40,376 nucleotides of DNA from Patescibacteria group bacterium. Lineage in GTDB: Bacteria > Patescibacteriota > Patescibacteriia > Magasanikbacterales > GWA2-37-8. Position 1 is the first letter of the stretch; the number at the start of each line of letters is the position of its first letter. The stretch spans positions 1-40,376 of the forward strand of contig JAHJCN010000041.1 in NCBI GenBank assembly GCA_018812905.1, read 5' to 3'. Shown here piece by piece: positions 16,608 through 37,874 of this stretch. The position numbers were made by a program, and so were the translations under genes. The notes under the pieces are model-generated. The model ran no database searches and was not told the origin of the DNA. It saw nothing but the letters and a program-made list of their open reading frames with translations.

Positions 16608-16700
16608 ATACGCGGAGGGTGAGAGATTTACCCCTTCGCTTCGCTCCGGGGTATAAACTTCTCATCTCTTTTTTATCCAATACGCGGAGGGTGAGAGATT
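16608..16700. repeat. Direct repeat of the tRNA-Ser 3' end and its flank
   Basis: A 21-base stretch at 16680-16700, of which the last 16 bases are the tRNA-Ser 3' end, is repeated exactly at 16608-16628, 72 bases away. A second near-repeat (CTTCTCATCTCTT...ATCCAA) occurs at 16551-16572 and 16658-16680. Together they look like a duplicated tRNA end plus flank, as left by an integrative element or by replication slippage. Between the copies there is only a short ACCCC...GGGGT hairpin. Confidence 0.7.
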
Positions 16701-16769
16701 CGAACTCTCGAGGCCTTGCGACCAACCGCCTTTCCAGGGCGGCGCCATAGACCACTAGGCGAACCCTCC
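16685..16769 (-). tRNA. tRNA-Ser (anticodon GGA)
   Basis: On the reverse strand the 85-base gene has an acceptor stem GGAGGGT/ACCCTCC, a D arm, an anticodon stem CCGCC/GGCGG around CTGGAAA (anticodon GGA at 16735-16733, reads UCC and UCU), a long class II variable arm typical of serine, and a T arm with GTTCGAATC. The discriminator is G. CCA is not encoded. It lies 21 bases from a palindromic repeat and downstream of lgt, with no clear promoter of its own, so it may be transcribed with the lgt operon. Confidence 0.95.
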
Positions 16770-16790: not shown

Positions 16791-16866
16791 AAAATGTCAT
16801 CCTGAGTGTAACGAAGGATCCCCTCGAATTGAATTAGATGCTTCACTACGCTCAGGATGACATTTT
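16791..16866. repeat. Dispersed palindromic repeat touching the lgt stop codon
   Basis: AAAATGTCATCCTGAG (16791-16806) and its exact complement (16851-16866) form a 16-bp stem around a 44-base interior. The right end overlaps the TAA stop of lgt. The TGTCATCCTGAG end is shared with copies inside rlmN (34865) and near typA (29764). Confidence 0.85.
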
Positions 16867-29763: not shown

Positions 29764-29848
29764 TGTCGTGCTGAATTTGTTTCAAGCATCTCTGTCGGTA
29801 AATTTTTGGCTAATTTGACAGAGATCCTGAAATAAATTCAGGATGACA
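29764..29848. repeat. Dispersed palindromic repeat upstream of typA
   Basis: The left end TGTCGTGCTGAATT (29764-29777) is an imperfect inverted match of the right end AATTCAGGATGACA (29835-29848), with two mismatches. An inner copy AGCATCTCTGTC/GACAGAGATCCT adds symmetry. The ends are of the TGTCATCCTGA family seen at 16791 and 34865. Any typA promoter must lie in or beyond it. Confidence 0.75.
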
Positions 29849-33145: not shown

Positions 33146-34188
33146 TTAAGATATTTATATTTTAATTGGTTGTGCTCCTCCAACGTTTTTCCAAAATGCA
33201 CCTTCCCCTCTTTGTCGGCCAAAAAAAACCAATAGTCATTCTTCTCCGGATAGATGGCGGCCTTAATCGCAGACAAGCTTGGATTATTTATTGGCCCGGG
33301 AGGCAGTCCGCGATATTTGTAGGTGTTATACAATGAGTTTATTTCTTTTTCCGTAAAAGAAATGGATGGTTTACTGTTGCCTGTCAAATAATTCACTGTG
33401 GAATCCAGCTCTAGCCCCATGCCAACGGAATTTCTACGCCACAAAACATCGGACACCAAAGCGCGGTCGCTTTCTTCGCGCGCTTCGGCCTCGATGAGCG
33501 AGGCCATGGTGATTATTTCATGAATGGTTTTGTTTTGCCTCGCGATTTCGGCTCGCAATCCAGAATCCAACTTGACGCCAAAATTTTCCAACATTTTTCT
33601 GGCTACCACTTCGGCTGGCGCGTCATTGGCAAAAAAATATGTATCGGGAAAAAGATAGCCTTCCAAACCCAAGCATTTTGGTTTATCCAACAAAAAATCG
33701 AATTCGTCGGAAAAATCTTTCGGCTTATCCAAGCTTTCATTCAAACAATAATTCACCGCCGGATAGCCTACAAGTCCTTGAAACTCGGCCGATCTCATCA
33801 AATCGGATTTTTCCAGTTCATCGCCATAATCTTTCACAGTCTCCCCTTCTTTAAACAAAACCTTTGTGGATGCAATATGTGGGTCGTTCAAAATCAGGGC
33901 AACTGATTTTATATTCATATTCGGCTTCATCACAAAAGTTCCCACTTGCAATTTTTTATCCATTCCATTTTTAGCCAAATACCTCTTAAACAGCCAAATG
34001 TTTTTTATCACCTCGGCTTGTTTGAGTTCATTGGCAAGCTGTGCCACGCTTTCTCCCTCTTTTATTTCAATGGACACATCCTGCGCGCCAGCGCTCGGTT
34101 TCATCCAATATGTTTGATAATTTACATAGCCCCAAACAGAGGCAATCGAAATGAACAAAAACAGAATTACGATTTTAATTTTGAGCAT
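33142..34188 (-). CDS. mltG: Endolytic murein transglycosylase MltG
   Basis: MltG (YceG) cuts nascent glycan strands at the membrane and so sets their length. The 348-residue protein has an N-terminal membrane helix (about 5-22), a LysM-like region (about 38-105, IEIKEGESVAQLANEL) and the catalytic domain. LEGYLFPDTYFF (175-186) and the catalytic Glu233 in MASLIEAEA are both present, as are ELDSTVNYL and the family's C-terminal GLPPGPINNPSLSAIKAA. Its stop overlaps the start of ftsI, linking glycan cutting with cross-linking. It follows rlmN by 16 bases. In many bacteria mltG sits near tRNA or replication genes; the pairing with a penicillin-binding protein is sensible. Confidence 0.95.
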   Translation of the reverse strand: MLKIKIVILFLFISIASVWGYVNYQTYWMKPSAGAQDVSIEIKEGESVAQLANELKQAEVIKNIWLFKRYLAKNGMDKKLQVGTFVMKPNMNIKSVALILNDPHIASTKVLFKEGETVKDYGDELEKSDLMRSAEFQGLVGYPAVNYCLNESLDKPKDFSDEFDFLLDKPKCLGLEGYLFPDTYFFANDAPAEVVARKMLENFGVKLDSGLRAEIARQNKTIHEIITMASLIEAEAREESDRALVSDVLWRRNSVGMGLELDSTVNYLTGNSKPSISFTEKEINSLYNTYKYRGLPPGPINNPSLSAIKAAIYPEKNDYWFFLADKEGKVHFGKTLEEHNQLKYKYLK

Positions 34189-34204
34189 ATGCCTATTTCA
34201 AACG

Positions 34205-35344
34205 TTAATTTAAATTTCTTAACTGCCCGCACGCGGCCGCGATGTCCTGGCCTTGCGACCTGCGAATGGTGCAAACAAATCCGGTTTTTAGCAATTTGCC
34301 GTGCCAGGCTTCTATTGTTTCGCGGGGCGAACCGGTGAATGAGGGCAAAGACCGTGGAAGGGATTCCTCAACTTCGTTCGGAATGACAGATGATTTTGAT
34401 TGACAATCTGGCGAGCAATTATACGGAATAAGATTGATGCGCACGCGCCCCATTTTTGAGGCCAACTTGATTAGAGCTTTGAGATGTTTATCATCATCAT
34501 TTACACCGGCAAGCATGGTGTACTCCAAACCAAGGAACAATGCTCGGCTGGTGAACCGCGCGTGATAACGCGGAGCCCAATCAACCAGAAAAGAAATAAA
34601 ATCTTTAGCGTGAGATGGAATGATTTTACCGCGTTCGTTATCTAATGCGCTGTGCAATGAAATAGCCAAACGCACAGCCGGAAAATTTTTATCTTCCAGC
34701 ATTTTGTCCAACATGGCAGGAATACCCACAGTGGAAACAGTAATTTTGCTTGGACCGATTTCAGTGTTATCCAAAATTATTGTTATCGCCTCTTTAACAT
34801 TTTCATAGTTTAAAAAAGGTTCGCCTTGGCCCATAAGCACGATGTTGGTGATTTTTTTTCGGCCGTCATCCTGAGGCGTAGCCGAAGGATCCCACGCTTT
34901 TGTTGGGGATTCTTCGCTCTGCTCAGAATGACAAACAAAAGCATGTCGCATCCAAAAACGCACCTGATCAACAATTTCTTCCACTGTCAAATTCCTGCGA
35001 AAACCAAACTGCCCGGTGGCGCAAAACTTGCACGCCATGGAACAACCCACTTGGGAAGAAACACAAACAGTATACCGCCCCTCTCTGCCCATCAAGACCG
35101 TTTCAATCATCTCACCATCTTTCAATTCCAACAAGGCCTTTTTTGTGTCATCTATTTTGCTTTCCTGTATTGTTTTTAATTTTACAACGAGCCAAGGCAT
35201 GTCTTTAATTTTTTCACGAAGACCTTTTGACAAAGTTGTAATCTCCGCATAACTGTTTATGGACGGATCAAACAAAGCCGTGCGGATCTGCTTCAAACGG
35301 AATGATGGCTGGGTAGCAAGAAGTTTTTTTAATTCATCTGACAT
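34205..35344 (-). CDS. rlmN: 23S rRNA/tRNA adenine-C2 methyltransferase RlmN, carrying two in-frame repeat insertions
   Basis: RlmN is a radical SAM enzyme that methylates C2 of A2503 in 23S rRNA and A37 in some tRNAs. The Fe-S cysteines are Cys101, 105 and 108 (CSMACKFCATG). The catalytic cysteine pair is Cys94 (YTVCVSSQ) and Cys372 (AAACGQL). MGQGEPFLNY and STVGIPAML are also present, so the active site looks whole. Two segments do not belong to the family: about 138-160 (CHSEQSEESPTKAWDPS and following) and about 319-329 (SVIPNEVEESL). Both come from dispersed palindromic repeats read in frame. The 379-residue length is slightly above usual for these reasons. It begins 4 bases after the P-type ATPase stop. 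Confidence 0.95.
   Translation of the reverse strand: MSDELKKLLATQPSFRLKQIRTALFDPSINSYAEITTLSKGLREKIKDMPWLVVKLKTIQESKIDDTKKALLELKDGEMIETVLMGREGRYTVCVSSQVGCSMACKFCATGQFGFRRNLTVEEIVDQVRFWMRHAFVCHSEQSEESPTKAWDPSATPQDDGRKKITNIVLMGQGEPFLNYENVKEAITIILDNTEIGPSKITVSTVGIPAMLDKMLEDKNFPAVRLAISLHSALDNERGKIIPSHAKDFISFLVDWAPRYHARFTSRALFLGLEYTMLAGVNDDDKHLKALIKLASKMGRVRINLIPYNCSPDCQSKSSVIPNEVEESLPRSLPSFTGSPRETIEAWHGKLLKTGFVCTIRRSQGQDIAAACGQLRNLN
34360..34388. repeat. Half-copy of the dispersed palindrome in rlmN (3' part)
   Basis: GGGATTCCTCAACTTCG followed by TTCGGAATGACA, one arm of the repeat family (TGTCATTCC end). On the coding strand it yields VIPNEVEESL, a widely seen translation of such units. Confidence 0.8.
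34865..34933. repeat. Complete dispersed palindrome in rlmN (5' part)
   Basis: GTCATCCTGAG (34865-34875) and CTCAGAATGAC (34923-34933) are inverted ends with one mismatch, 69 bases in all, exactly 23 codons. Its coding-strand translation begins CHSEQSEESP. It lies between two conserved blocks of the protein and keeps the frame open. Confidence 0.88.
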
Positions 35345-35348
35345 ATTA

Positions 35349-37874
35349 TCATTTATGATTTTTTTTCACGATCAAGCTTATTAAACCCATGGCCGTAAAC
35401 GAAACCCCAAAAATTAACAAGTATTGAGCGGCGCCTAAAGAAACCAGTCTAAATAAATTGCGAATACCCGGAACAGCAACGATAATAAACAAAGCCACAG
35501 CAATAATGCAGGGAATTATCAATAGCAATCTGTTGCTTTTTACCTGCGACCATTCACGCGTGAGAATGATCAAGAATAATTGCGAAATGACAAGCGACAC
35601 GAAAGTAAAAGTACGGCCCAAATCTTGGTCGCCCAAATATATGCCAAAATAATAATAGAAGGAAAAGCTTACCGCAATAATGCTTGTCGACTGCACCGCC
35701 ACTTTCCACCACAGCGAAGGAATTATAAGCGGATCTTTGGCCGGGCGCGGTGGTTCGTCCATTAAATTTCTGCGGGCTTTTTCCCGCTCAAACCCGAGCA
35801 CCGCCGCCGGATCGCACAAAATTTCCAAAAATATAACGTGGATCGGCATAAAAATTAGTGACCGGTTGAATATGAGAGGGAGAATTGCTAAACCAACAAT
35901 GGGCAGATGAAATGTTAGCAGAAAAACAAAGGCGTTGCGCATGTTGTCGTAAATTCTTCGACCTTCTTTCACAGCGCTCACCAGACTGGCAAAATTATCG
36001 TCCATAAGAACCATCCCGGAAGCGGCGCGCGCAACTTCGGTTCCGCGCAAACCCATGGCAATTCCAATGTCGGCCTGGCGCAGTGCGGGCGCGTCATTCA
36101 CTCCATCGCCGGTCATGGCCACTATTTCACCATGACTCTGCAAGGCCTTTACAATTGCGTATTTTTGTTCCGGTAGAACTCGCGCGAAAATGGAATGGCG
36201 TTTCACCGCCACCCTCAAAGCTTCGGGAGAAAATTTTTCCAAATCAGAACCGCATAAAATTTCTTCACTATGAACCATCCCAATGCTCTCTGCCACATTG
36301 TGCGCTGTCAATTTATTGTCTCCCGTAACCATAATGACTCTCACGCCGGCTTTTTGGCACATACCAATCGCTTCTTTCACTCCTTTACGAGGTGGATCAC
36401 TCATGGCCAACAGACCAACAAAGACCGCGCCATTCGCGTTTATTTCGGCGTCGCAAGCGCACTCTTTTTTAGCCACGCCAATCACTCGATAACCCGCGTC
36501 GGCCATTTTTTCATTCGCCGCGCTTGCCGAATCTTTTATTTCTTCGGTAATCGCGCAGGAATTCAAAATCGATTCCGGAGCTCCCACGGAATACTGCGCG
36601 CACTCTCCATTTTTATCTTTCCAAATATGATGCACCATTTTACTTTTGGAATCAAATGATGAATCTTTAATCAAATCATGGTCGGCGTAAAAATTTTCAA
36701 CATCAACACCTATATATCTAGCAAACTTTTGTATTTCAATTTCAATCGGATCGACAGCCACTTTTTCCAATGCCAACAAAGATGCTTTAATCAAATACTC
36801 CAATGACGCGCGAAGCTCGCTTGGTTCATCCGGTTGAATAGGCGCTGATACATCAATTACTTTTTTATCAAAATATATCTTTTCCAAAGACATCCTCCCT
36901 TCGGTCAATGTGCCTGTTTTGTCCGAACAAATCACCGTGGCCGAACCCAAAGTTTCCACCATCACCATCTCGCGCACCAAAGATTTCTTTTTGGCCAAAC
37001 GCCACATACCCATAATTAGAAAAACGCTAAAGACCACCGGGAACTCTTCGGGAATTAAGGTTATTGCCATGGTAAGCGCACCCAAAACACCTTCACTCCA
37101 CCCATTAAAGTAGCCAACAATCAAACCAACTATTACAGCCACGCCCAAAGCTATCATTGCCACAAATCGAATCAATTGGCGAATTTTTTTCTGCAGAGGA
37201 GCGTCTGTTTTTTCGATTTTTTGCAAAATATTTCCCAGCTTGCCATATGCTGTTTGCAAACCGGTCAATTCTACCAGCATATACCCTTCGCCTTGCACCA
37301 CCAGCGTGCCTTGATGCAAACGATTTTCTTTGTTGATTTGCGCGATATCTTCCGGCAGCTCGCTCTTAACCACTGTCAAAGACTCGCCGGTTAAAATTGA
37401 TTCATCAAGAGACAATCCAAACGAACGCAGTAGATAGCCATCCGCCGCGATTTGATCTCCGGCAGTGACGTAGATTAAATCGCCGGGAACAATGTGAATT
37501 ATTTCCAAATCCAGCAACTTGCCATCTCGATAGACCTTTGCGTGTTTTACTGCCATCTTATCTAACACGGCAATCGCTTCATCGGTTTTTTTCTCTTGAA
37601 GAAATTCTATAGTCATTATCGGCAAAACCGACAACCAGACAATCGTCGCTTCAGCCAAATCACCTATGGTCAAATACACAAAACCGGTAATGATCAATAA
37701 CAACATCATGGGTTCTGTGGCAATGTGCCAAGCGCGCAGAAAAAAGCTTTTCTTTTTGGGTTCAACCCCCTGATTCAGACCAAAAACTCCCAGCTTTTTT
37801 ACAGCTTCTTCAGACGATAGTCCATTGTAATCTTTTCTATTCAAAATAATTTTACGAAATTCTTCCGATGTCAT
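35349..37874 (-). CDS. Cation-transporting P-type ATPase (P2-like)
   Basis: An 841-residue ion pump driven by ATP, with about ten membrane helices. The actuator loop has TGES (162-165), the phosphorylation site is Asp318 in CSDKTGTLTEG, and MTGDGVNDAPAL forms the hinge. The M4 ion-site motif is IPEEFP (274-279), where Ca2+ pumps have IPEGLP, and M6 has LEILCDPAAV. These favour a P2-type pump near the Ca2+ and Na+/K+ pumps, but the Glu-Phe variant belongs to a less studied branch, so the ion cannot be named. The N-terminal 40 residues are the normal cation ATPase cap. ATG at 37874 overlaps the transketolase stop (ATGA), so translation is coupled. Confidence 0.93.
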   Translation of the reverse strand: MTSEEFRKIILNRKDYNGLSSEEAVKKLGVFGLNQGVEPKKKSFFLRAWHIATEPMMLLLIITGFVYLTIGDLAEATIVWLSVLPIMTIEFLQEKKTDEAIAVLDKMAVKHAKVYRDGKLLDLEIIHIVPGDLIYVTAGDQIAADGYLLRSFGLSLDESILTGESLTVVKSELPEDIAQINKENRLHQGTLVVQGEGYMLVELTGLQTAYGKLGNILQKIEKTDAPLQKKIRQLIRFVAMIALGVAVIVGLIVGYFNGWSEGVLGALTMAITLIPEEFPVVFSVFLIMGMWRLAKKKSLVREMVMVETLGSATVICSDKTGTLTEGRMSLEKIYFDKKVIDVSAPIQPDEPSELRASLEYLIKASLLALEKVAVDPIEIEIQKFARYIGVDVENFYADHDLIKDSSFDSKSKMVHHIWKDKNGECAQYSVGAPESILNSCAITEEIKDSASAANEKMADAGYRVIGVAKKECACDAEINANGAVFVGLLAMSDPPRKGVKEAIGMCQKAGVRVIMVTGDNKLTAHNVAESIGMVHSEEILCGSDLEKFSPEALRVAVKRHSIFARVLPEQKYAIVKALQSHGEIVAMTGDGVNDAPALRQADIGIAMGLRGTEVARAASGMVLMDDNFASLVSAVKEGRRIYDNMRNAFVFLLTFHLPIVGLAILPLIFNRSLIFMPIHVIFLEILCDPAAVLGFEREKARRNLMDEPPRPAKDPLIIPSLWWKVAVQSTSIIAVSFSFYYYFGIYLGDQDLGRTFTFVSLVISQLFLIILTREWSQVKSNRLLLIIPCIIAVALFIIVAVPGIRNLFRLVSLGAAQYLLIFGVSFTAMGLISLIVKKNHK

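Follow-up and report, generated by a model that had tools for sequence, protein, structure and literature searches.

Our analyses support the view, to which we assign a probability of about 0.88, that a 69-nt insert in an rlmN gene of a Patescibacteria genome is a palindromic repeat of the CGTC-REP (RPE-like) type, mobile but non-autonomous, which would have inserted into the gene, been tolerated there and been translated as a disordered loop, while a second half-unit would have entered another loop of the same protein. The repeat has a regular hairpin structure, is present in many copies, lies in frame at a place where relatives lack it, and also decorates other genes of the same genome. The window, i.e. 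the whole stretch of DNA that was analysed, is 40,376 nt long and belongs to an assembly of 992 kb in 137 contigs (96% complete); its features are collected in Table 1.

Table 1. Features of the window related to the palindromic repeat
Feature	Position	Strand	Details	Support
rlmN (putative)	34205-35344	minus	379 aa, two repeat-derived inserts	TIGR00048 match and fold match
CGTC-REP-like head-head heterodimer, site A	34864-34933	minus	in frame, residues 138-160	
Half-unit 1 of site A	34905-34933	minus	tag TGTC, stem ATTCT/AGAAT	model R1, 46.9 bits, in training set
Half-unit 2 of site A	34864-34894	plus	tag CGTC, stem ATCCT/AGGAT plus GGC/GCC	model R1, 38 bits, in training set
Single half-unit, site B	34359-34388	minus	in frame, about residues 319-329 (SVIPNEVEESL), stem ATTCC/GGAAT, AAC/GTT	
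Intergenic dimer copy	16795-16862		near tRNA-Ser (16684-16769, minus)	
Intergenic half-unit, related class ATCCTGAA...TTCAGGAT	29820-29848	minus		E=3e-4
Weaker partner of the 29820-29848 half-unit	29764-29793	plus		E=0.065

The identity of the gene is assigned from its sequence and its modelled fold. Its product matches the profile TIGR00048 (E=2.5e-77; 260 bits, below the curated cut-off of 290 bits) over residues 3-377, the match passing through both inserts, and is 61-64% identical to its nearest relatives. The alignment shows no change at C94, C101, C105, C108, C372 and E81 or in the MGxGEP motif, and the CxxxCxxC motif and the catalytic cysteines are present in the window protein, in agreement with the initial annotation, according to which all catalytic residues are kept. 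An AlphaFold2 model built from a 29-sequence alignment (mean pLDDT 87.4) resembles the solved structures of E. coli RlmN, with Z between 35.0 and 38.5, as well as a Sphaerobacter homologue (Z 38.5). It predicts an intact core, mostly at pLDDT 82-98, and two low-confidence inserts, the ten-residue blocks over them scoring 52-59 and the C-terminal end 59, with most other blocks above 82. Within the radical-SAM barrel, site A presumably falls between helix 1 and the strand that follows it, facing away from the active site.

At site A, the inverted ends GTCATCCTGAG (34865-34875) and CTCAGAATGAC (34922-34932) delimit a palindrome of 68 nt (34865-34932). Together with the next base it makes up exactly 23 codons without a stop (TGT...GAC, minus strand, 34933-34865), translated as CHSEQSEESPTKAWDPSATPQDD. 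The inverted ends and the 23 stop-free codons had both been noticed before and were confirmed, as was the derivation of the codons from 69 bases, the palindrome itself being one base shorter than the 69-base unit that had been described. Read from the sequence, each half is internally matched through its own five-base stem. Both halves scored highly in the window (E=6.5e-11 and 2.1e-8, both having been used in training the model), and the whole dimer folds as RNA into one hairpin (-32.4 kcal/mol, z=-6.1), the single halves alone folding not clearly better than shuffled sequences at the usual threshold. A search for direct repeats in the window revealed no family of exact 69-base copies, only the arms being shared. 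The half-unit scores, the RNA fold and the recurrence of a core motif at 14 sites in the genome, compared with none in the reversed control, indicate that the palindrome at site A did not arise by chance. As a separate observation, the dimer spacer CACGCTTTTGTTGG (34893-34906) and the flank CAAACAAAAGCATG (34932-34945) outside one arm are complementary at 12 of 14 positions, a likeness that may be fortuitous; the small number of other copies examined showed no evident complementarity of this kind.

To describe the family we built a covariance model of the half-unit (R1) from 12 halves of the same genome, leaving out the copy at site B. It returned 64 matches at E<=1, located on many contigs, so that the genome-wide count proposed in the initial annotation gave a positive answer both for the half-unit and for the core motif. 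The stem covaries: 97.6% of the cells are paired, compared with 85.5% in shuffled alignments, and two-sided changes occur in 11 cells, compared with 2.5. All 12 aligned halves carry a CGTC or TGTC tag (partly by construction, as halves were selected by a GTCAT core) and begin their stem with the pairs A-U and U-A (the 5' side being contained in the selection motif, the 3' side not); the stem is followed by CCC, by CCA or by a variant, e.g. CTC or CTA. The hairpin of the main class consists of 5 bp, a tandem G/A mismatch, 2-3 bp and a 3-nt loop, and that of the ATCCTGAA-CTTGT-TTCAGGAT class, which also occurs in this genome and was inspected by eye, of an 8-bp stem and a 5-nt loop. Head-head dimers with the tags outside were found at site A, in the intergenic copy near tRNA-Ser and on contigs C99 and C11; this intergenic copy and the half-units at 29820-29848 and 29764-29793 were missing from the initial annotation. 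No Rfam family matched positions 34000-35600 at gathering thresholds. Some half-units of this genome (contigs C97, C88, C79 and C123) contain a further small palindrome within their loop, e.g. CCCGACT...AGTCGGG or GCCGGCCTCTAGCGGG, as if repeats nested in repeats.

The half-unit at site B, likewise previously overlooked, provides a test of the model by a copy that is independent of it (E=5.7e-6) and bears a TGTC tag. Its loop measures 50 residues, compared with 28-31 in insert-free relatives, and 36-54 in a group of relatives with inserts of their own.

The comparison with other RlmN proteins covered 57 genomes of the same family and order of Patescibacteria, Candidatus Magasanikbacteria among them, of which 31 gave an RlmN match, the genome of the window included; only two relatives with RlmN were recovered by a scan of genome contigs, and each of them is assigned to Candidatus Magasanikbacteria. 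The presence of RlmN matches in just 31 of 57 genomes weakens the earlier description of this enzyme as essential-like. When the relatives were aligned over residues 138-160, as had been suggested, the insert was missing: the loop from Gln127 to MGQGEP has 44 residues in the window protein, whereas in 27 of 29 relatives its length is 18-26 and mostly 21-24. The excess is thus 20-23 residues, and exactly 23 with respect to relatives with the common spacing of 21. As relatives lack the insert and further copies of the unit are scattered over the genome, neither an insert shared by the close relatives nor a repeat restricted to this one site describes the data, which support the proposal that a repeat spreading through this genome has come to lie in coding sequence, where it forms a protein insert.

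The two exceptions, L016 (40 residues) and L017 (54 residues), each carry a different palindrome in this loop, namely CCCCCTCTTACCAAGAGGGGG in the former and CCCCTCCTTTCGAAGGAGGGG in the latter. Sites of the CCCCTCCTTTCGAAGGAGGGG type number 20 in G018, 18 in G009 and 8 in G044, with none in the control, the pattern matching only the rlmN copy in G054 itself. Another RlmN loop of L021 contains the palindrome GTCATTGCGAGG...CCTCGCAATGAC, and L020 has a palindrome at site B. Several kinds of palindromes thus occupy a few RlmN loops in this order. A 24-base palindrome is also present in the rlmN of G004.

Insertion in frame is not peculiar to rlmN. Among the best 51 of the 64 matches, which were inspected for open frames (ten frames being compared with NCBIfam and two with Pfam), units of this kind were found in frame in no fewer than eight conserved genes besides rlmN. 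The family profile passes through the unit in a ComF-like protein, LeuRS, RsmA, RuvA, PolA, an Mpl/MurC-like protein and MnmA, and a GT4 glycosyltransferase has one recognised domain on either side of its unit; the remaining inspected units lie at the ends of proteins, within hypothetical frames or in intergenic DNA. By eye, a second repeat-like peptide was seen in several of the decorated proteins (PolA, MnmA, Mpl and RsmA). Given these genes and the in-frame REP and RPE units already described (PMC3733652), the earlier characterization of the insert as unusual is not supported. Two frames deserve mention in their own right. In the leucyl-tRNA synthetase frame of contig C86 (664 aa), a Nudix domain (PF00293, E=7.2e-13, residues 78-197) follows the editing-domain match and precedes the catalytic-domain match, and a hypothetical frame of 465 aa on contig C32 contains many repeat-like peptides in a row.

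Different evolutionary scenarios might explain the maintenance of the insert. The unit is made up of two imperfect hairpins. Each has a CC tail and an unpaired YGTC tag, and the two are joined by their tails, which leaves the tags on the outer sides. One copy would have entered the rlmN loop between the first radical-SAM barrel helix and the next strand, and a single half-unit another variable loop. The enzyme would have survived because of the 3n length, the stop-free frame and the surface position of the insert, and by this survival the copy would have passed purifying selection and come to be translated as a disordered loop. We infer that the insert is translated into mature RlmN and that the enzyme retains its activity; judging from the structural model, the 23-residue loop added is probably floppy. 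Alternatively, the insert might have been co-opted, either serving RlmN or tuning rlmN expression as an mRNA hairpin, as the strong RNA fold of the dimer and the presence of two units in the gene could suggest. However, we consider this improbable, since unrelated proteins of the same genome carry units in several frames and both orientations, the insert is predicted at low confidence and relatives manage without it.

The limited occurrence of RlmN among relatives and the profile score under the cut-off would also fit an rlmN turned by the insert into a decaying pseudogene, a scenario that the frame open over 379 codons, the retention of all expected catalytic residues, the identity to the nearest relatives and the high-confidence core make very improbable. 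Least probable of all, hardly more than a theoretical case, is the removal or skipping of the hairpin during expression, by mRNA excision or ribosome bypassing, yielding a protein without the insert. Such a process could draw on the stable hairpin and the head-head structure of the repeat, but it would be superfluous because the frame is open; moreover, no Rfam family matches the region at gathering thresholds, and R. conorii proteins with an N-terminal RPE-1 are expressed in vivo (PMC3733652). A tolerated and translated mobile repeat is therefore the reading that we retain.

As for the enzyme that moves the repeat, a Y1 transposase was considered and rejected. No match to Y1_Tnp (PF01797) was found in the genome of the window, where at 96% completeness a gene may have been missed, and the number of REPs was not associated with Y1_Tnp across 57 genomes (Fisher tests with four different thresholds, p between 0.72 and 1.0; rank test, p=0.97; kinship ignored). 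A wider survey covered 74 genomes, each at least 90% complete, 51 with REP matches and 29 with Y1_Tnp; here Y1_Tnp occurred in 6 of 20 REP-rich and 23 of 54 other genomes (Fisher p=0.42, kinship ignored). REP counts in both tests derive from at most 130 or 100 scored candidates per genome and are lower bounds. The single-contig genome G036 has 70 REP matches and no Y1_Tnp match. The relative G017, also without a Y1_Tnp match, has the head-head dimer at 12 of 14 sampled loci, and its 70-nt dimers possess identical 28-nt arms and different flanks. Two of them differ at 1 of 70 positions, which, together with their different flanks, suggests a recent spread in this genome; the enzyme may since have been lost there, or may have diverged. 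We infer that the repeat moves as DNA by the action of some enzyme. At the G017 loci L107-L120, the 28-nt arms are near-identical, the spacer of about 14 nt varies, and nearly all copies lie between T and A. The genome G069 has 27 Y1_Tnp matches on many contigs, many of them cut off at contig ends, as would be seen if the assembly had been interrupted by a multi-copy insertion sequence.

A broader generalisation, possible but doubtful, is that in this order of Patescibacteria CGTC-type REPs still spread via non-Y1 (RAYT) machinery and, with other palindromes, insert again and again into the same loops of conserved enzymes, RlmN for instance, where they are tolerated, so that housekeeping proteins of very small genomes gain disordered peptide. 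With our results, palindromic repeats that code for protein are extended to a lineage with streamlined genomes of very small size, in which one would least expect additional DNA. Because CGTC-REPs show no link to Y1 and near-identical copies exist in a genome in which no Y1 transposase was found, the question of the mover can be tested in closely related Magasanikbacteria. The repeat also explains odd in-frame peptides (CHSEQSEES, CHCERSEAIS, VILNEVKD etc.), which can disturb protein alignments and annotation.

In the open-licence literature, we found no earlier report of such repeats in Patescibacteria or the Candidate Phyla Radiation and nothing on the peptide CHSEQSEES, and the papers with GTCATTCTGAG seemed, among the matches listed, to be unrelated, judging by title and the start of the abstract. 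The survey of the CGTC-REP superfamily (Di Nocera, De Gregorio and Rocco 2013) covered five phyla, Patescibacteria not included, and filed Rickettsia RPE-4 and RPE-6 as CGTC-4 and CGTC-1 (PMC3733652). The repeat matches this superfamily in its YGTC tag, its AT-starting stems, its short C-rich tail close to CCA and its mostly head-head, multi-copy, interspersed dimers with the tags outside, as well as in the in-frame copies in conserved genes, sometimes two per gene, and in having no dedicated transposase tied to it. With regard to stem and loop length the agreement is partial, with 5 bp, a G/A mismatch, 2-3 bp and a 3-nt loop here, whereas published CGTC families have an 8-9-bp stem and a 4-5-nt loop (PMC3733652). 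As in REPINs mobilised with RAYT (Y1), two inverted REP hairpins would form one mobile unit; in contrast to REPIN/RAYT and GTAG-REPs, the tag is YGTC instead of GTAG and the genome has no Y1_Tnp match. Like the Rickettsia palindromic elements, the repeat forms palindromic in-frame units in housekeeping genes and adds about 20-30 residues, although the host phylum differs, RPE-1 is longer and the likeness is one of general organisation. REPs at about the same recB site are known from two Xanthomonas species, and in-frame CGTC and RPE units, two units per gene and the lack of a dedicated transposase have already been reported (PMC3733652); the process is therefore a known one, described from Rickettsia and a few other bacteria, of which rlmN offers a new case from a group of bacteria that has received little study.
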